A stretch of 43,435 nucleotides of DNA, taken from assembly GCA_903927025.1 (NCBI GenBank), contig CAIYLG010000066.1, positions 1-43,435 on the forward strand, written 5' to 3'. The DNA is from an uncultured Armatimonadota bacterium. Lineage in GTDB: Bacteria > Armatimonadota > Fimbriimonadia > Fimbriimonadales > Fimbriimonadaceae. The notes under the pieces are model-generated. The model did no database searches, was not told where the DNA came from, and saw nothing but the letters and a program-made list of their open reading frames with translations. The translations under genes and the position numbers were made by a program. How positions within the stretch are numbered: position 1 is the first letter of the stretch; each line of letters begins with the position of its first letter. Below are positions 22,824 to 30,944 of the stretch, piece after piece.

Positions 22824-24467
22824 TTAGGGGATCGGTTTGAGACGGATTGAGTTGGGAACGCTTGCCAAGTGGGCGCCCCTCATTCCCGATTCGGGAGCCT
22901 GAAGCCGAATTGATGTCTGCTTCGCCTCTGAACTCTCCCCTGGTCGGAAGTGTAGGTCAAAGGAGATGTCCTCCGGCAGGTTCGTCTGAAGAGCCTCGCC
23001 GGCAATGATCCATTCGAGGGGGCCCGCTGCGGTGCGATCCTCTAGTTCGACTTCCAAGCTCCACTTCCCAGTTAGACTGCCATCCAGAACCCAGGTGAGG
23101 GCGTACGGTTTGGGTGGGTCGTAATAGCCCCTTCCGTTTGTGCGGTAGAGCACATCCGCTTGCTTTGCAAGGAGTCGATATTCACCCGCCGCGTTCGGTG
23201 GAATCGCAGGGAGCAAGACATGAGGTAGGCCGGAAAGCTCAAGTCTTAGAACGGGAAGCAGGCTGTCGTGCGGCTTTGTGGTGACAAGGATTTCCTGTCC
23301 GCCTTCATTCTTGGCCGACACTCTCACATCTCCCGTCCAGCCGATCGGTTCTGCTTTGAGGATCACGTTGGTCAACCCGGGAAGCAGTAGGCGTCCGTCT
23401 TCTGGCCACTTTGAGACGAACAGGTATATCGTCGCGTCAACCGTGGTGCAGCATCCAAACTCCAGGTGCCGAAATGGTTGCGGCTGGCAGCCGTCAAACG
23501 CCTCACGGTGCTGGCTCAACCAGACTCCAATTTCACTCAGCACCTTCGCCTCGAACGCAACGAGAGAGCCATCTCCCTTCGGCCCAATATTGAGGAGATA
23601 GTTGCCGCCACGCGAGACAACTCGCACGAGGTTTCTAAGGTGCTCCCCGACTTTGGCACCCAAGTCCGACCGGTCCTGCCAAGTGCGGTAGCCCCAGGTT
23701 TCGTGATAGATGGAGGCGGGAGACTGCCAAGGCTCCTCCAGCAGATATGGGGGAATCTCGTTGTCTCCCATCACCGTGAAGTCACCCTCGTGATTGAACA
23801 CCCTGCCGCTCACCATCGTGTTGGGCTGGAGGGCGTGAACCGTGTCGGTGAAAAGAATGCTCTGTTCTGGGGTCGGAGAACCCATATCAAACCAGACTTC
23901 CGATATTGGGCCGTACCCGCTGAGAAGTTCCTTCAGCTGCTCGGCGTTGAATTGTGCATGCGATGCTGGAATTTCATTGTCATTACGCACTTCCCCATTT
24001 GGAGCGTAGTCAATTCCCGTGCCGCCCTCAAAGTGCCAATCAATCATGGAAAAGTACACGCCAAAGCTCAGTCCATGGCGAGCACACGCCTCGGCGAGAC
24101 CCTTGACGATATCGATGCCATAAGGTGACGCATCCACCACATTGAATGTAGACTGCTCCGTTTTGAAGAGACTGAATCCATCATGGTGTTTGGAGGTCAG
24201 CACGATGAACTTCATCCCCGCTTCAATCGCGAGTCGCGCAACTGCATCCGGATCCCAGTTCGTCGGATTGAACTGGCCGGCCAGCTTCTCATACTCCTCG
24301 CGTGGAATATGCGCATGGGCCTGAATCTGCTCGCTGTAGCCGCCGATCTGCCTGCCCTCCCAAATTCCGCCCGGGATGGAGTAGAGCCCCCAGTGGATAA
24401 ACATCCCAAATTGCCTGAACTGCCAGGCGTGAACGGATTCAGTCGAAGGACGAGGAGCACGAGCCAT
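22824..24467 (-). CDS. GH29 alpha-L-fucosidase
   Basis: 547 residues from ATG 24467 (a TTG two codons earlier is possible). GH29 landmarks are present: FGMFIHWGLYSIPGG, KFIVLTSKHHDGFSLF, the catalytic nucleophile in EVWFDMGSP (Asp about 194) and the WGYRTWQDRSDLG region. The catalytic barrel covers about 15-340, with a C-terminal beta-sandwich. It releases alpha-L-fucose from glycans. No signal peptide is seen, so it probably acts on imported oligosaccharides in the cytoplasm. Single gene; the nearest neighbour upstream is a block of repeats. Confidence 0.93.
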   Translation of the reverse strand: MARAPRPSTESVHAWQFRQFGMFIHWGLYSIPGGIWEGRQIGGYSEQIQAHAHIPREEYEKLAGQFNPTNWDPDAVARLAIEAGMKFIVLTSKHHDGFSLFKTEQSTFNVVDASPYGIDIVKGLAEACARHGLSFGVYFSMIDWHFEGGTGIDYAPNGEVRNDNEIPASHAQFNAEQLKELLSGYGPISEVWFDMGSPTPEQSILFTDTVHALQPNTMVSGRVFNHEGDFTVMGDNEIPPYLLEEPWQSPASIYHETWGYRTWQDRSDLGAKVGEHLRNLVRVVSRGGNYLLNIGPKGDGSLVAFEAKVLSEIGVWLSQHREAFDGCQPQPFRHLEFGCCTTVDATIYLFVSKWPEDGRLLLPGLTNVILKAEPIGWTGDVRVSAKNEGGQEILVTTKPHDSLLPVLRLELSGLPHVLLPAIPPNAAGEYRLLAKQADVLYRTNGRGYYDPPKPYALTWVLDGSLTGKWSLEVELEDRTAAGPLEWIIAGEALQTNLPEDISFDLHFRPGESSEAKQTSIRLQAPESGMRGAHLASVPNSIRLKPIP

Positions 24468-24543
24468 TGCCAATTAGGTTACCGGGCATGGACTCAACGA
24501 GGTCGGTTTGGATTGTCGTCTCGAGTCGTTTCGCGGTCGCGCC

Positions 24544-25142
24544 TGGAGGGAACCTGGATTACCGCCTGGTTAGGGTGAATGATGGGTTTGTGCCTTTGAT
24601 TGGCAGTTGCTTTAACTAGGCAAAAGAGCAGTAACTCGGATTCCTCCACCACGAGCCGTGGCGGGCGGAGGGTGGGGAGGGAGTGGCGAAAGTTGCTGCT
24701 CCCCGCTCCGCCGGGATCCTTGTTCATCGTGATTAGTTGCTGGTCGTAAATGCCGTGCCGGGGGCGCGCTTGCGGTTTGCCACCCCCTCCCTGAGCCCTC
24801 CACCCGCCACGATGGCGGTGGAGGGAACCCGGATTACCGCCTGGCTCACATGAATCAGGGCATTGACACTCCCGGTTTCAGTCACTTCTGGCCAAGCCAA
24901 GGCGCTGCAGATCGGCTCCCTCTCCCGCCATAAGTGGCGGGCTGGAGGGTGGGGAGGGGGTGGCGAACGTCAACGCTCCCGGCGTAGCCGGGGTCCACAT
25001 TCTTCGTGATGTGTAGCTGGTATTTGATAAGGTGCCAGGGGCGCGTCTTCAGTCCGCCACCCCCTCCCTGAGCCCTCCGCCCGCCACGATTGCGGTGGAG
25101 GGAACCTGGATTGCTGCCTGGTTGGCGTGCATGATGGGTATG
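24544..25142. repeat. Tandem 275-bp intergenic repeat, about 2.2 copies
   Basis: Unit A 24544-24818, unit B 24819-25095, partial unit C from 25096. Each unit opens with TGGAGGGAACC(C/T)GGATT and carries a G-rich arm (24941-24965 in B) and its inverted partner CGCCACCCCCTCCCTGAGCC (from 25055), plus a small hairpin near the joint (CCGCCA-CGA-TGGCGG in A/B). Unit ends and middles diverge by many substitutions and short indels. The 696-bp gap between fucosidase and Rieske genes holds these repeats and no supported gene. They look like a mobile or amplified BIME-like family. Confidence 0.8.
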
Positions 25143-25163
25143 TAACTTTAGGCTTCCACCGCT

Positions 25164-26249
25164 TCAGCGGCTGAGGCTAGCCGCGATGAGGCGATGGAAC
25201 TGGTGGACGTTTTGTTCCCGGGCTACCGAGTACCGGCCCTTGTCATAGAACCGTGAACGAACCCCACGCTGCACCAACTCCACGACTGCTTCGTCTTCCC
25301 GTTCCACTCGGTCGAGGTCTCCCCCTGCACCTTGTCCCAGTTTGGAGGCATCCCACACATAAGGGATAAAGGAGATCTTGGTGAGGTCGGGAGCCAAGGG
25401 ACGAACCACGTTCACGGAGAGGCCCCATGGGTAGAAGTTCAGCATGATGTTGGGGAACAGCCAGTAGTAGTACGCACTAATCTTTTGGCCATAGTCGATC
25501 GATGATTTCGGCAGGTCAAACACCGCTTCTCCGCCCTTTGATACTGCGAGTTGCAGGTTGCCCCACTCGAAAGGATGGGTTGAGTAGTTGCCGTAATCCA
25601 GAGCTTCATTCAGCGCGGCGTGAATGAACGGAATATGGAAACCCTCCAGGTAGTTGTCGACGTACAGCGCCCAGTTCGCACGGACCATATATTCTCTCCC
25701 ACGCGATGGGTCTGGAAAGAACTGGTCTAGCGGCAGCCAGCCTACTCGATCTAGAACCGGAGCCAGCACGGTTTCGAGACTCGCGAGTGGATTGACCGAG
25801 GCAAACATAAGCTTGGACCAAGTGCCGAATGCGACACTGGCTAGGTTGTCTGCTTTCGTTGGAAAACCACAAACCCCATCAAACTCGGGCATGTGCTGAA
25901 AGCATCCGTCGAGACCGAAGCGGCGTCCATGGTAACGGCACCGGAGGAAGCGCTCATTGGAGGATCCTTCCGCGACCTGCATCCCTCGGTGGGTGCACAC
26001 GTTGCTGAGGAGATGAATCTTGTCATCCATGTCCCGAGTGAGCACCATCGGCTCGTCCAGGAAACCTTCGAGAAGCGTGAATGGGTGAACCGTACCAGGA
26101 ACCTTCACTAAGTCGGTGTCACCGATAAATTGCCAAGACCGTGCAAAGATCTTCTCCCGAACCTGGTCGAACACCGAAGGATCCTTGTAGAACCGGGAAG
26201 GAAGCGTCGACGCCTCCGCAATCTCCTCGTGCACGAACAGGTCGGACAT
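25164..26249 (-). CDS. Rieske non-heme iron oxygenase, alpha subunit
   Basis: 361 residues from ATG 26249; upstream in-frame codons come from the REP copy and are rejected. Rieske motif CTH (Cys85, His87) and CRYHG (Cys104, His107) bind the 2Fe-2S cluster. The catalytic domain has the iron ligands in DNYLEGFHIPFIH (His205, His210). Aromatic-ring-hydroxylating, choline-monooxygenase and carnitine-oxygenase enzymes share this layout. It hydroxylates or demethylates a substrate with O2 and needs a reductase, which is not nearby. It may act on a small amine or aromatic (inference). Confidence 0.9.
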   Translation of the reverse strand: MSDLFVHEEIAEASTLPSRFYKDPSVFDQVREKIFARSWQFIGDTDLVKVPGTVHPFTLLEGFLDEPMVLTRDMDDKIHLLSNVCTHRGMQVAEGSSNERFLRCRYHGRRFGLDGCFQHMPEFDGVCGFPTKADNLASVAFGTWSKLMFASVNPLASLETVLAPVLDRVGWLPLDQFFPDPSRGREYMVRANWALYVDNYLEGFHIPFIHAALNEALDYGNYSTHPFEWGNLQLAVSKGGEAVFDLPKSSIDYGQKISAYYYWLFPNIMLNFYPWGLSVNVVRPLAPDLTKISFIPYVWDASKLGQGAGGDLDRVEREDEAVVELVQRGVRSRFYDKGRYSVAREQNVHQFHRLIAASLSR

Positions 26250-26277
26250 GGAAAACAGTCTATCTCGTCTGGGCCAA

Positions 26278-26400
26278 GGGAACGCTGGCTTCAGCCGGTG
26301 CGCGGTGTGTGCTTCAGCGCACACAGAAGTCGAGCGAAAAACAGCCCTTTTCTCCCGTGCTGAAGCAGCGGTCGCCGCGCCGGCTGAAGCCAGCGTTCCC
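26278..26400. repeat. REP-like palindrome, copy 1
   Basis: A 123-bp imperfect palindrome with outer arms GGGAACGCTGGCTTCAGCCG and CGGCTGAAGCCAGCGTTCCC. Inner hairpins use GCTTCAG/CTGAAGC cores (GTGTGTGCTTCAGCGCACAC). Flanking bases extend the symmetry as AAGGG/CCCTT. It lies 28 bp before the Rieske start codon, on the coding side of its 5' region. Same family as the copies flanking the transposase gene. Confidence 0.85.
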
Positions 26401-26453
26401 TTGACCGAATGAGTGGAGGCAGAAAGGACAAGATACAAATGAAGCCATCCACC

Positions 26454-26576
26454 GGGAACGCTGGCTTCAGCCGGCGCGCGGTGTGTGCTTCAGCGCACAC
26501 AGAAGGCGAGCGAACAACAGCCCTTTTCTCCCGTGCTGAAGCAGCGGTCGCCGCGCCGGCTGAAGCCAGCGTTCCC
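26454..26576. repeat. REP-like palindrome, copy 2
   Basis: A 123-bp copy, nearly identical to copy 1 over its length with single-base differences (for example GCGCG for TGCGCG, AAGGCGAG for AAGTCGAG). It is preceded by ATCCACC, as is copy 3. It lies 58 bp upstream of the RAYT start codon. Confidence 0.85.
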
Positions 26577-26634
26577 TGCTTTCCTGAAAGCCCACTAATA
26601 CTACTAGGCTTCTTCTTACTGTAAGCTGTCTCTA

Positions 26635-27210
26635 ATGTCTGACGAAAAAGGCATTTATTCGCGAGGTCGCCTTCCGCACTACGACGGAGGTGAGGTGCCG
26701 CAATTCGTAACGTGGCGCGTCGCAGATGCTGTTCCAGCATCTGTATTGGTTCAATGGCTCCATGAACTCAACGATATAGACGATGTGATTCGAAAATCCG
26801 AAATCACCCGCAGGATTGAGGCGTTCTGCGATCAGGGGCATGGCGAATGCCTCCTCAGAAATCCAGTGGCCGCTCTACGGGTCCAAGACGCCCTTTTCGA
26901 AAGTGAGGGAAAGCTTTGCGAACTGCACGCATGGGTTGTTATGCCGAATCATGTCCACTGCATTCTGACCCCAAAAAACTGTACCCTGGCCAAAGTTGTT
27001 GGGCAAATTAAGGGAGCTTCAGCAAGGAGAATCAATCAGGCGCTAGGGCGGTCTGGAACACTGTGGCAAAGAGAATTTTTCGACCGGCGCATTCGGAATT
27101 TTGATCAATTCCAGCGAACGAAGGCATACATTGAAAGAAATCCGGTGAAGGCGAAGCTATGCGAAATTCCATCAGCGTGGGCATTTAGTTCAGCATCACA
27201 GCGGAAGTGA
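26635..27210 (+). CDS. REP-associated tyrosine transposase (RAYT, Y1_Tnp / IS200-like)
   Basis: 191 residues from ATG. The HUH motif is PNHVHC (His106, His108) and the catalytic tyrosine is in AYIERNPVKA (Tyr165). The conserved WQREFFDRRIRN and the N-terminal PQFVTWRVADAV motifs match RAYTs. These enzymes cut single-stranded REP hairpins and spread REP sequences rather than jumping as full elements. All active-site residues are intact, so the gene may be active. Neighbouring REP-like palindromes support the assignment. Confidence 0.92.
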   Translation: MSDEKGIYSRGRLPHYDGGEVPQFVTWRVADAVPASVLVQWLHELNDIDDVIRKSEITRRIEAFCDQGHGECLLRNPVAALRVQDALFESEGKLCELHAWVVMPNHVHCILTPKNCTLAKVVGQIKGASARRINQALGRSGTLWQREFFDRRIRNFDQFQRTKAYIERNPVKAKLCEIPSAWAFSSASQRK

Positions 27211-27236
27211 CAAGAATCGAATTGAAATCATCCACC

Positions 27237-27336
27237 GGGAACGCTGGCTTCAGCGCACACAGAAGTCGAGCGAACAACAGCCCTTTTCTCCCGTGCTGAA
27301 GCAGCGGTCGTCGCGCCGGCTGAAGCCAGCGTTCGC
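27237..27336. repeat. REP-like palindrome, copy 3 with 23-bp internal deletion
   Basis: Matches copies 1 and 2 except that 23 bp between two GCTTCAG repeats is missing, leaving GGCTTCAGCGCACACAG. This is the result expected of slippage or recombination between 7-bp direct repeats. Its last base is the first base of the ThuA-like gene's stop codon (minus strand), where the terminal CCC has become CGC. Confidence 0.85.
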
Positions 27337-28004
27337 TAGGCTTTTGCGGCCCAGAGGAAGCCTCGGCGCATGAGTTCTCTTGGGTGCTCGGCTTCTAGGA
27401 CATCGCGATGGTGGCCGAGGGCGTTGTAGAAGACTCGGCCTTTGCCGTACATCTTCGTCCAGATCTGCGGCATTTTGCAGGGATTGGCAGTGTGGGGGCC
27501 GTCGGCGCCGGGGGTTGGGAAGTCGCAGGTGGCTAGAACGCAGTTGCCGGGATCGGTGTGGAGGTAGTACTGCTCTGACACCACCTCAAAGTCGGGGATG
27601 CCATCCGTGATCGGGTGGGCAATGTCTCGGTTGATATGGATGGTGTAGACCACACCGTCATTGCCAGGGTGAGCCACCCATTGCCCGCCGGTCATGAACT
27701 GCCACTCAGTGTCTAGGCGGAATGAATCGCACATTCCGCCATGACAGCCGGCAATGCCCACACCATGCTCCCGAACTGCCTTCAGGATCGGATCGCGTTG
27801 CGCGGCCGTGATTTCGCTCATCGTGACGATGGGCACGAGAAGAGACTTGCTGAGCACGTTTGCCTCGTCGGCAAACGCGTCCAGCGTGTCTGACACTTCA
27901 ACTTCAAACCCTTCTTCGAGCAGAACCTGCTCGAAGAACCGAGCTACCTTCTCGGGCTCATGCCCATCCCATCCGCCCCAAACGATCAGCGCACTCTTTG
28001 CCAT
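27336..28004 (-). CDS. ThuA-like (trehalose-utilisation-type) protein
   Basis: 222 residues from ATG 28004. It fits the ThuA/class I glutamine-amidotransferase-like fold: ALIVWGGWDGHEPEKVARFF, GVGIAGCHGGMCDSFRLDTE, and the C-terminal MYGKGRVFYNALGHHRDVLE. A Cys-His pair near residue 87 (AGCHGG) is in the place of the amidotransferase elbow. ThuA-like proteins are common in sugar and osmolyte gene sets. Function here is unknown. The REP copy 3 ends at its stop codon. Confidence 0.88.
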   Translation of the reverse strand: MAKSALIVWGGWDGHEPEKVARFFEQVLLEEGFEVEVSDTLDAFADEANVLSKSLLVPIVTMSEITAAQRDPILKAVREHGVGIAGCHGGMCDSFRLDTEWQFMTGGQWVAHPGNDGVVYTIHINRDIAHPITDGIPDFEVVSEQYYLHTDPGNCVLATCDFPTPGADGPHTANPCKMPQIWTKMYGKGRVFYNALGHHRDVLEAEHPRELMRRGFLWAAKA

Positions 28005-28032
28005 GTCGAGACGGAGGTTACCAAACTCTGGC

Positions 28033-29676
28033 CTAAGCCAGCCGTGTCGGCAGGATTCTCAGCCGGCGATTGGGGTCTTCTCCCACGCTTTCGCTGGCAA
28101 GTCGTCTCGATTCGGCGATCTGATGCTGCACCTTGCGGATCGGCGCCGGGGCTGGGCTCAGATCAAAAGGCTTTCCAGACTGCAGAACAATCTCAATCGC
28201 CTGCTGCACGTCATCCAGCGCCTTGGTGTGCTCATCGGGGGCATCGGTGCCCCCTTTGAGAATCTGATCCAACGCGTCAGCGATCTGGCTGAACGTGTTG
28301 GACTTCACCACCACGGTCTGCACCGGTCGACCGGCCATGTCGCGCAGCTTTCGGGGCTGGCTCTGGTAGGTCGACCGCATCGCAACCACGGCGTCGGCTT
28401 GGTTGATGTCGTTGGTCAGGTACGCCGACGCCCTCTTCTCCCGGATCGCCCGCTCGAGCCGCGTCCGGTTGATACCGTAGGGAAAGATTCGGATAAGCGC
28501 TTTCGGCTCATCCTTCACCCCCTCAAGTTCTATTCGGTCACGGTTCGACTCACCGCTTGGCTTGGCCATTCCGTTTTTCACGGGCTGACCCTTGGGCATT
28601 TCCTCTCGCGGCACCTGGGTGCGAGAGAGGCTGGGGAAGCGCTTGTTATAGCCTGGATCGCTAAGATCGGCCGTCTGCTCTGCCTGAACCACTTCCACGG
28701 TTCCGGCACCGGTTCTTACACGAATCTCAGGTCTCGGTGGCACGCCCCGCAGGATCATGTCCACTGTTTTCATCACGTTGTGATGAACGGCGAGACGGTC
28801 ATAATCCAGCAGTTCGATGACCACATCGAACGTCGGTGGCGCCTTTCGCTCGAGTACCGTTTTCTGGGTTCCCCGCCTCTGTGCTTCCGCATCAGAAAGG
28901 GTTACCGCCTGGATCCCGCCGATGAGGTCGGCGAGAGTTGGGTTGAGCATCAGGTTCTCAAGCGTTTGCCCGTGCGCAGTTCCGACAAGCTGAACGCCTC
29001 GTTCCGCAATTGTGCGCGCGGCAGAGGCTTCCATTTCCGTTCCAATTTCATCGATGACGATCACTTCCGGCATGTGGTTCTCCACCGCCTCGATCATCAC
29101 GTTGTGCTGCTCTGCCGCGACCCGAACCTGCATTCGGCGGGAGTAGCCGATGCCTGGATGGGGAACATCGCCGTCGCCGGCGATTTCGTTGGAGGTGTCC
29201 ACAATGACCACCCGCTTCATAGCTTCGTCCGACAGCACTCGGGCGACTTCGCGGAGCTTCGTGGTCTTTCCGACACCCGGTTTGCCCAGGAGCAGAATCG
29301 ACTGGCCGGAACGGACGATGTCATCGATGATGTCGATGGTCCCTTCCAAGGCGCGGCCAACTCGGCAGGTAAGGCCGATAATCCGGTTGTGGCGGTTGCG
29401 GATAGCTGAGATTCGGTGGAGGGTGCGCTCGATTCCAGCTCGGTTATCGGTTCCGAACTCGCCGATCGACTTATTGACGAAGTCGATGTCGTGTTCGGTG
29501 ATGATCACGTCGCTGAATCGTTCGACGGTGTCTCGGTAGCGAGCCTCGGCAGGGCGGCCGTAATCCAAGACAACTTCGATCAGGGTATCGAGTGCAGGTC
29601 CGCGTTCAAGTCTCTCTCGGACAATGCTTGGGAGCACATCGAGGAACTGCGAGAGGCCGTCTGAATGCATCGACAT
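28033..29676 (-). CDS. Ycf45-like AAA ATPase (SpoIIIAA-related) with C-terminal nucleic-acid-binding region
   Basis: 547 residues from ATG 29676, chosen because the frame upstream overlaps the HtrA gene; an ATG two codons on is possible. The ATPase core has Walker A GKPGVGKT (131-138) and Walker B VIVIDEIG (205-212), with the GTAHGQTLENLM motif of Ycf45/SpoIIIAA proteins. The C-terminal part (ALIRIFPYGINRTRLERAIR) matches the R3H-like or Ycf45 tail. The family is conserved in cyanobacteria, chloroplasts and other bacteria; the role is not firmly known. Fourteen or so bases separate it from the ThuA-like gene, suggesting a shared transcript. Confidence 0.85.
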   Translation of the reverse strand: MSMHSDGLSQFLDVLPSIVRERLERGPALDTLIEVVLDYGRPAEARYRDTVERFSDVIITEHDIDFVNKSIGEFGTDNRAGIERTLHRISAIRNRHNRIIGLTCRVGRALEGTIDIIDDIVRSGQSILLLGKPGVGKTTKLREVARVLSDEAMKRVVIVDTSNEIAGDGDVPHPGIGYSRRMQVRVAAEQHNVMIEAVENHMPEVIVIDEIGTEMEASAARTIAERGVQLVGTAHGQTLENLMLNPTLADLIGGIQAVTLSDAEAQRRGTQKTVLERKAPPTFDVVIELLDYDRLAVHHNVMKTVDMILRGVPPRPEIRVRTGAGTVEVVQAEQTADLSDPGYNKRFPSLSRTQVPREEMPKGQPVKNGMAKPSGESNRDRIELEGVKDEPKALIRIFPYGINRTRLERAIREKRASAYLTNDINQADAVVAMRSTYQSQPRKLRDMAGRPVQTVVVKSNTFSQIADALDQILKGGTDAPDEHTKALDDVQQAIEIVLQSGKPFDLSPAPAPIRKVQHQIAESRRLASESVGEDPNRRLRILPTRLA

Positions 29677-29780
29677 ATTGAGTTGTACGAGCCAAATGCC
29701 GCTTTCGCGACACCACATATTGTATGACGTGGCCCTCCTGAGTGGAGTCTCAAGAGGGACTATTTTTGCGCAGTTTCTTA

Positions 29781-30944
29781 TTAATCGCCGCGTATCTCGT
29801 CGAGTTTGACCGTCGCGGAGCGCTTCTGCCCATGCGACCAAAAGTTCACGGTGACGGTATCACCGGGCTGTTTGTTGCCCAGCGCCTTATTGAGGTCTAC
29901 GGTGTCATTGAGCGGATGACCGTCAATGTCGGTAATCACATCCCACTTCTGCATTCCCGCCTTGCCGGCGGCCCCGTCGGGTGGAACGGTGGTGAGAAGG
30001 ATGCCGTGGTCCGGTGGTGTGCCGCCCACCATCTGGGCGAGTTCATCTCGGTCCCGCGGAGACTGAAGAATCTCCACCGACCGTGGATGGTAGTTGATTC
30101 CAAGGCCGCCATATTTGGCATAGCCGTACTTGATGATCTGGTCAACCACCCGACGCATAGTGTTGACCGGGATCGCAAAGCCGATACCCACGCTGCCGCC
30201 GTTGCCGCTGGCGATGGCGGAGTTGATGCCCACGAGTTGTCCGTTGGCATCCGTGAGCGCGCCACCCGAGTTTCCAGGATTGATGGCGGCGTCGGTCTGA
30301 ATCCCGTCCAGCAGGACCGAGTTTTGGAGGCCGAGGGTTCGGCCCAGCGAGCTGACAACTCCGACGCTGACGGTGTTGTCAAATCCCAGAGGATTGCCGA
30401 CTGCGACCACCCACTGCCCCACATCCAGTTTGGCGCTGTCTCCCACTTCAATCGGGGTGAGATCGTTAGCCTCGACTTTCAGCACGGCAAGATCCGCCCG
30501 GCGGTCTCGGCCCAACACTTTGGCGACCAGCACACGCTTGTCGGGAAGGCGCACCTTCACGAGGTCAACGATGCTGTGCTCAGGGTCGTTGGCGACTTCG
30601 ATCACGTGGTTGTTGGTGACGATGATGCCGTTCTTAGAGAGGATCACGCCGCTGCCGGAACCGGTCTCCCGAAGCTGTCCCTGGCTGTCATCAAACCAAG
30701 ATTGAATGCGGTTGTACTGATCCACGCTGACCACCGAAGGGATCACCTTCTTGGCCGCGTCGCGGAAATCGACTGGTGCCGACCCACCGGAGGTGGCCAT
30801 TGTCGGGATCAGGGTCGTTCCCTGTCGCCACTCAATGGGTTCACCGCTAGATCGACGCGCTTCGACGAGCTTGTTTACTTGCAAAGCAAGAAACACACCC
30901 ACGAATGCGGCCGCAAAAACTATTAAGAACGCTGACTTCTTCAT
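29781..30944 (-). CDS. htrA: HtrA/DegP-type serine protease with PDZ domain
   Basis: 387 residues from ATG 30944; the in-frame upstream codons overlap the STAND ATPase gene. A signal anchor (about 5-25) is followed by the S1C trypsin-like domain with His113 (VTNNHVIE), Asp151 (RRADLAVLKV) and Ser226 (INPGNSGGAL), then one PDZ domain (about 290-385; GKAGMQKWDVITDIDGHPLN). Envelope quality-control protease. The single PDZ and N-terminal anchor fit DegS/HtrA of diderms better than two-PDZ DegP. Direction matches neighbours. Confidence 0.93.
   Translation of the reverse strand: MKKSAFLIVFAAAFVGVFLALQVNKLVEARRSSGEPIEWRQGTTLIPTMATSGGSAPVDFRDAAKKVIPSVVSVDQYNRIQSWFDDSQGQLRETGSGSGVILSKNGIIVTNNHVIEVANDPEHSIVDLVKVRLPDKRVLVAKVLGRDRRADLAVLKVEANDLTPIEVGDSAKLDVGQWVVAVGNPLGFDNTVSVGVVSSLGRTLGLQNSVLLDGIQTDAAINPGNSGGALTDANGQLVGINSAIASGNGGSVGIGFAIPVNTMRRVVDQIIKYGYAKYGGLGINYHPRSVEILQSPRDRDELAQMVGGTPPDHGILLTTVPPDGAAGKAGMQKWDVITDIDGHPLNDTVDLNKALGNKQPGDTVTVNFWSHGQKRSATVKLDEIRGD

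Follow-up and report, generated by a model that had tools for sequence, protein, structure and literature searches.

The foot tetranucleotide of a REP is held to be both the mark of the element and the guide that sets the cut site of its transposase, TnpAREP (PMC8266576). Two large foot classes, GTAG and CGTC, have been described (PMC3733652), and according to PMC8266576 the TnpAREP of E. coli does not accept any change in GTAG. For RAYT subclasses 2.6 and 3, REPs that lack GT[AG]G have been recorded (PMC6006769). As reported in PMC6006769, TIRYTs belong mostly to subclass 2.1 and have a C-terminal DnaA_C/HTH-like domain and a median length of 238 aa. Tandem clusters of REPINs are known in Pseudomonas fluorescens SBW25 (PMC3116915). 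The main text of PMC3733652 contains neither ‘GGAG’ nor ‘Armatimonad’, the main text of PMC6006769 does not contain ‘Armatimonad’, and no report of a GG[AG]N tag for RAYT/REP systems was found in the open-library literature searched.

The window analysed here, a stretch of 43,435 bp, corresponds to C66, one of the 66 contigs of a 5.25-Mb assembly (G000). It very probably carries a REPtron, in which a domesticated IS200/IS605-like (Y1, HUH) transposase would move or copy REPINs with GG[AG]N as the guide and in which the third REPIN is broken. Since atypical REPs are also found in subclasses 2.6 and 3, the element is kept in the broad REPtron family despite the missing GT[AG]G.

Genomic context of the element

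The features of the locus are listed in Table 1. The RAYT gene lies on the strand opposite to both of its neighbours. As stated in the first-pass annotation, REP copies lie close to both genes: copy 1 begins 28 bp before the Rieske ATG (26249), and a single base separates the end of the copy 3 palindrome, at 27334, from the ThuA stop codon (27336-27338). From the ThuA stop to the Rieske ATG there are 1086 bp, compared to 77 bp in the congener G012, where the two genes have the same direction and no REPtron is present. Therefore, the element separates two codirectional genes that are close together in a congener. In a further congener, G007, a different gene is found between ThuA and Rieske. 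Within 26100-27450, neither a promoter-like nor a terminator-like site was detected. An effect of the element on the Rieske and ThuA genes is plausible.

The junction between copy 3 and ThuA was also considered as an insertion site. After the ThuA stop, G012 reads TAGCGA and the window TAGCGAACGC, which is too short as proof of a junction or a target. Judging from this alignment, the three bases after the ThuA stop could be host sequence. PADLOC gave no match, and a plasmid search returned 13 records, all with less than 60% identity and no near relative among them.

Table 1. Coordinates of the features at the REPtron locus (positions in the window)
Feature	Position	Strand	Remarks
Rieske non-haem iron oxygenase alpha subunit, neighbour	25164-26249	-	
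REPtron, whole span	26278-27337		
REPIN copy 1	26278-26401	.	Two inverted REPs, outer arms complementary; fold z -8.3/-8.5
35-bp stretch between copies 1 and 2	26419-26453	+	Resembles RAYT 3' end and downstream flank 27201-27236
REPIN copy 2	26454-26577	.	Foot GGGAA, hairpin CGCTGGC-TTCA-GCCGGCG, second hairpin GTGTGTGC-TTCA-GCGCACAC, spacer, inverted REP
RAYT (TnpAREP), 191 aa	26635-27210	+	HUH H106/H108, Tyr165, stop TGA 27208-27210
REPIN copy 3, 101 nt	27237-27337	.	23-bp internal deletion; adjoins ThuA stop codon
GCTTCAGC	27247-27254	+	Sole remaining repeat at deletion junction of copy 3
ThuA-domain protein, neighbour	27336-28004	-	Pfam domain complete, 2-209 of 209

The transposase

The RAYT protein scores 92.7 bits against NF047646 REP_Tyr_transpos (cut-off 80) and 48.7 bits against PF01797 (cut-off 23), while its score against the IS200 equivalog NF033573, 28.6 bits, stays below the cut-off of 55. 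At an E-value of 0.001, Y1_Tnp is found alone, with no second Pfam domain. A structure model was built with 20 sequences (pLDDT 87.5). In a Foldseek comparison with all PDB chains, the predicted fold is nearest to the E. coli REP transposase in complex with its hairpin (4er8_A; E 2.7e-9, TM 0.50 by query length). H106, H108 and Y165 are all kept, within the motifs NHVH and YIERNP. The first-pass annotation had proposed a REPtron with an intact RAYT that retains both His and the Tyr, and the profile score, the modelled fold and the catalytic residues bear this out.

The nearest RAYT to the window protein is that of G019 (57% identity), at whose locus no flanking REPs are detectable. The next RAYT in its own genome is 52% identical. 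In the second RAYT of the genome (L107; G000:C58:4394-4954, - strand), Cys replaces the catalytic Tyr, and the match contains an in-frame stop three residues from its end. Around this gene there is still an inverted pair, which has GGAG and a TTCA hairpin.

REPIN units and the deletion in copy 3

Copies 1 and 2 are 124 bp each and 98% identical, and both lie upstream of the RAYT, with copy 3 downstream. The 124-bp units are REPINs, with two REPs in inverted orientation, and each REP consists of two hairpins with a TTCA loop. In the fold of the left REP of copy 2, GGGAA is followed by a hairpin of 7 bp and, after four bases, by one of 8 bp, both with the loop TTCA; the right REP shares the first hairpin, and its second is bulged and 6 bp long. 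Complementarity between the outer arms of a unit extends over 25-31 nt. The arms of copy 1 span 31 nt (26272-26302 / 26376-26406) and are 94% complementary; they extend six bases past the unit (26272-26277 / 26401-26406, GGCCAA / TTGACC, one mismatch), which is not seen in copies 2 and 3. When folded as single-stranded DNA, copies 1 and 2 reach z-scores of -8.3 to -8.5 on either strand, with 0 of 200 dinucleotide shuffles being as good. Copy 3 folds more weakly (z -3.7 and -3.3), again with 0/200 shuffles as good. Taken singly, the REP halves of copy 2 are no better than shuffles by energy (z -1.4 with 14/200 as good, and z -0.2 with 81/200).

The full units consist of two inverted REPs and a spacer that form one hairpin, as REPINs do, and inverted palindromes that recur in the genome surround the gene, as in a REPtron. 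The flanking palindromes had been described as sharing the hairpin style expected of the transposase. This is the case for the inverted hairpin REPs as such, but not for the foot, as the canonical GT[AG]G is absent: all three copies lack both GTAG and GTGG, whichever strand is read. The foot tag of the window REPs is GGAA (foot GGGAA), and GGAG is found in their genomic relatives. Rfam gave eight weak matches, none at or above the gathering score.

The left flanks of copies 2 and 3 are alike (35/36 bp), with a local score of 34 compared to 32 for the best of 2000 shuffles. The left flank of copy 3 (27201-27236) starts within the last RAYT codons and spans the RAYT stop. This duplicated tail suggests a tandem history, in which either an earlier RAYT tail stood before copy 2 or the tail and a REPIN were copied upstream.

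Based on an alignment to copy 2 with one gap, copy 3 has lost exactly 23 bp. The first-pass annotation had placed this loss between two 7-bp GCTTCAG repeats; its extent is correct, but the repeat is the 8-bp GCTTCAGC. This sequence occurs twice in copy 2, at 26464 and 26487, where each of the two stretches forms the tip of one hairpin in the left REP. The 23-bp loss therefore fuses half of each hairpin and ruins both. Copy 3 is left with a left REP without either hairpin and an intact right REP whose outer foot is CGAA. Since REPIN-like units elsewhere in the genome (on C19, C41 and C7) keep both TTCA/GCTTCAGC stretches, the deletion is the derived state.

Presumably by slippage, or otherwise by recombination, between the identical GCTTCAGC stretches, the 23 bp and with them both hairpins of the left REP would have been removed, which would make copy 3 a dead or half-dead REPIN. 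It is unlikely that the loss was made by the RAYT itself, through strand transfer between the two hairpins. Both breakpoints do lie in hairpin loops, and TnpAREP carries out cleavage and strand transfer in vitro (PMC8266576), but the cuts reported in PMC8266576 adjoin the REP structure at CT or CA and are not in the loop, and the 8-bp identity at the junction is enough for slippage.

REP population of the genome

The genome was searched with the degenerate REP head GGRRCGCTGGSTTCASCCGG, using the reversed pattern as a control. With up to 2 mismatches, 54 REP heads were counted, compared to 0 for the reversed pattern, so that the palindrome does have other copies in the genome; their absence had been named in the first-pass annotation as evidence that would refute its reading. 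Among the 32 exact heads, 26 read GGG-TTCA-CCC and five GGC-TTCA-GCC, and one is mixed. In 31/32 the stem pair is kept through a C-G/G-C swap, i.e. a change on both sides; the copies are related.

Inverted pairs account for 24 of the 54 heads. The remaining 30 stand outside pairs, several of them at contig ends. The outer lengths of the 12 inverted pairs are 121 (2), 124 (2), 192 (3), 269 (3) and 341 (2), and the lengths 269 and 341 fit about 122+72n. A 72-bp tandem unit between two inverted REPIN ends is present on 13 contigs. On seven of these (C21, C24, C46, C51, C54, C55 and C65) the array is located at the contig end or within 25 bp of it, and the assembly was probably broken by these arrays. 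The arrays on C2, C4, C10, C50, C58 and C59 lie inside the contigs. The 72-bp tandem expansions in related REPINs of the genome probably have their explanation in the same internal repetitiveness as the loss in copy 3. That the same internal repeats show both contraction (-23 bp) and expansion (in +72 bp steps) offers a clue to the death and growth of REPINs.

Heads with up to 1 mismatch number 43 in G000, two in G007 and none in 18 other congeners. Five congeners were also searched at the DNA level with copy 2, without a positive control in these, and gave no match. The REP population is lineage-specific. Near-identical REPIN copies (at least 97%) are confined to the window locus, the rest of the genome being at 72-89%, so that recent mobilisation by the window RAYT does not follow from these copies.

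Foot tag at related RAYT loci

To place the foot tag, 88 related RAYT loci were taken, of which 84 were scanned and four were dropped for short flanks. At 62 of the 84, a flanking inverted pair is better than 100 shuffles, and the hairpin sequences differ between different RAYTs. The loci were also scanned mechanically for a foot no more than 2 nt away from a hairpin of 6 bp or longer, required on each side of the RAYT. GG[AG][AG] was found at 24/84 loci and GT[AG]G at 14/84, with shuffled means of 0.1 and 0.05, respectively. On both sides of GG-clade RAYTs, the tag lies next to an internal hairpin, at a distance of 0-2 nt. The window locus fails this both-sides scan because of its damaged copy 3, which on the downstream side offers one ruined REP and, for the other, the foot CGAA.

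Two trees were labelled with tags read by eye. In the first (88 rows), the GG label (22 rows) needs 2 changes, compared to 13.1 when shuffled. The GGRR label needs 2 changes because G035_C1 falls elsewhere, and the place of G035_C1 is unsure since its match is split over two frames. The second tree comprises 64 rows including other families and phyla, made with a quick search and a midpoint root and without G173_C178 and G210_C176 (both GG). One of the comparisons took 32 loci from a set of 42, and another used 19 of the same 42. All 32 GG rows of the second tree fall in one 42-row group (SH-aLRT 95), which also holds 5 GT rows in two subgroups. The sister side has 15 GT rows and 0 GG rows. 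The tag label needs 2 changes here, compared to 16.2 when shuffled, and none of 500 shuffles reaches so low a number. Among the members of the GG group are a Planctomycetales locus (L065, foot GGAA) and an Akkermansiaceae row (L066) whose tag is not readable. Judged from these trees, the GG foot tag is a property of the clade and not a local oddity.

A GG foot unique to this clade was considered and rejected. Three loci, G036_C2, G003_C56d and G018_1543551 (L171, L173 and L175), belong to a distant RAYT group and have GGAG followed by T before the hairpin, possibly through an independent origin of the GG foot. These three are distant NHYH-type RAYTs.

Further tags occur in other RAYT groups. 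In the group of G033_C8, G001_C42, G001_C33, G025_C26a and G023_247018 (L165, L168, L169, L170 and L181), the flanking palindromes start with ATGCCTC, unlike the GT[AG]G, CGTC or GG tags. At G060_C85, G061_1190828, G037_470580, G023_C5 and G081_C1 (L161, L176, L177, L184 and L190), the inverted palindromes start with GGGTGCC or GGGTGGC. At L040 and L041 (G061 and G037), long rows of GGGARCGCACGCGTCCCGCGTGG repeats are found on both sides of a GG-clade RAYT.

The anatomy of the tag also bears on whether the element might be a TIRtron, i.e. a TIRYT with terminal inverted repeats, instead of a REPtron. This is quite improbable. GGGARCGC resembles GGGGWSAS and the outer arms of the units are complementary over their 25-31 nt, but the position of the GG-clade tag beside an internal hairpin on both sides is REP anatomy, and the 191-aa window RAYT, without a second Pfam domain, shows no C-terminal HTH-like domain of the TIRYT kind. 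Less probable again is that the palindromes serve the host as RNA hairpins (terminators, mRNA stabilisers or attenuators) beside which the RAYT is incidental. Strong intergenic hairpins are present right at the gene ends, and such roles have been assigned to REPs in other bacteria according to PMC3733652. Against this, the region 26100-27450 lacks a terminator-like site, none of the eight weak Rfam matches is a family at or above the gathering score, and inverted hairpins flank the RAYT at 62/84 relative loci with sequences that differ by RAYT. The palindromes may have RNA-level roles that are secondary to mobility. The least probable reading, an autonomous IS200/IS605-type insertion sequence whose gene and ends move as one, draws on the shared fold family and on weak IS200 matches (PF01797, 48.7 bits; NF033573, 28.6 bits), but the latter is below its cut-off of 55, no near-identical second gene copy is found in the genome (identity of the next, 52%), the gene is far outnumbered by short elements that lack it, and no tnpB-like gene was noticed on looking over the ORFs of at least 90 aa that overlap 24000-30000.

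For the preferred REPtron, a mode of action can be proposed by analogy with described systems. The RAYT most likely binds one REP when this is single-stranded and folded, e.g., on the lagging-strand template. The unpaired foot, GGAA or GGAG, would serve as the guide, and the enzyme would nick next to it through Tyr165. In this way it would move or copy REPINs, i.e. inverted REP pairs, giving rise to the lineage-specific REP population. The putative guide in this RAYT clade would be GG[AG]N instead of GT[AG]G.

Residues associated with the foot tag

To compare the residues of the two clades, 24 GG-clade and 21 GT-clade rows were used, drawn by clade and including rows with an unread tag. The sharpest differences are at positions 23, 17, 158 and 151. 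Position 23 is Q in 23/24 GG-clade rows and Y in 16/19 GT-clade rows, and position 151 is R in all 24 GG-clade rows and H in 17/20 GT-clade rows. At position 158, H is found in 23/24 GG-clade rows; the window RAYT has Q and not H at this position. R151 aligns with H101 of E. coli, which PMC6006769 lists among the GTAG-contacting residues. In the RAYT model, position 23 is predicted to open the first strand (beta1), a region with guide contacts according to PMC8266576. R151 as the sole determinant of the tag was rejected, as L067 and L068 (Planctomycetota) and, from the first locus set, G114_C45 and G032_C384 have R with a GT tag.

Since a single clade change cannot separate function from descent, the rule Q23+R151+H158 was noted before unseen loci were read. 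Of 14 unseen loci with this combination, 11 were read by eye as GG, two as GT and one was unreadable. The 11 GG loci comprise eight GGAG, two GGAC and one GGTG, four of the 11 being read from the upstream flank only. At one unseen locus (G259), read as GG, GTAG is also present three to four bases further out. The two GT readings are G222_C153 (GTAG) and G222_C17 (GTAC), and with 2/14 reading GT the combination does not stand as a strict rule. Seven other unseen loci were read, six with Y23 and one with H23, for which there was no prediction. Among the six with Y23, G283 has a clear GTAG, G280 has GTAG with a non-significant repeat, and four are unreadable. From these alignments and readings, Q23+R151+H158 tends to go with the GG tag.

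It is possible, though we put this forward tentatively and as something short of probable, that the guide changed from GT[AG]G to GG[AG]N in a RAYT clade that crosses phyla (Armatimonadota, joined by members from Planctomycetota and Verrucomicrobiota). The new guide would be read by Q23 (beta1) and R151 (H101 of E. coli, beta4), with the cleavage dinucleotide or the insertion target shifting along. In the model of PMC8266576, bases 3-4 of the foot select CT, and bases 2 and 4 select CA; under this model GGAG would retain CT and allow CC, and with GGAA the cut would shift to TT or TC. If true, REP guides would act as address labels that can evolve and that diversify together with their enzymes. 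The GG-foot clade, sister to a clade with the usual foot and with few differences in the guide region, offers natural pairs with which the reading of the guide by a single-strand transposase could be tested.

Comparison with known systems

Compared to the E. coli REPtron (4er8; PMC8266576), the window element has in common an HUH-Tyr enzyme, inverted REP pairs around the gene and genome-wide REPs. Residues W144, Q145, D150 and R154 of the window protein align with W94, Q95, E100 and R104 of E. coli, which contact GTAG according to PMC6006769. The two systems differ in the foot, GGAA here and GTAG in E. coli, and R151 here corresponds to H101 there. In addition, the short stems of the window REPs are perfect and lack a mid-stem bulge, their loops are TTCA, and each REP has two hairpins.

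According to Quentin et al. 2018 (PMC6006769), RAYT subclasses 2.4 and 2.7 share with the window protein NHVH, WQ, Y--NP and a length of about 190-215 aa, and occur in various phyla. The Y motif of the window protein, YIERNP, fits neither the YIxNNP of subclass 2.4 nor the YI[LR][NQ]NP of subclass 2.7 as given in PMC6006769. The REPs described there for both subclasses carry GT[AG]G, unlike those of the window.

The REPINs of P. fluorescens SBW25 (PMC3116915) are alike in having two inverted REPs and a spacer that fold as one long hairpin of about 100 bp, and a private RAYT. The foot is different, and the 72-bp tandem expansions here are inside the element, whereas the tandem repeats described for SBW25 are of whole REPINs. 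TIRYTs and TIRtrons, as described in PMC3733652, share with the window element a Y1 transposase, inverted repeats and a G-rich terminal motif, but in the window element this motif forms a hairpin foot, and a C-terminal domain is absent from the protein. The element is ordinary in kind and well preserved, and what is new is its putative guide tag and how widely this tag is shared.
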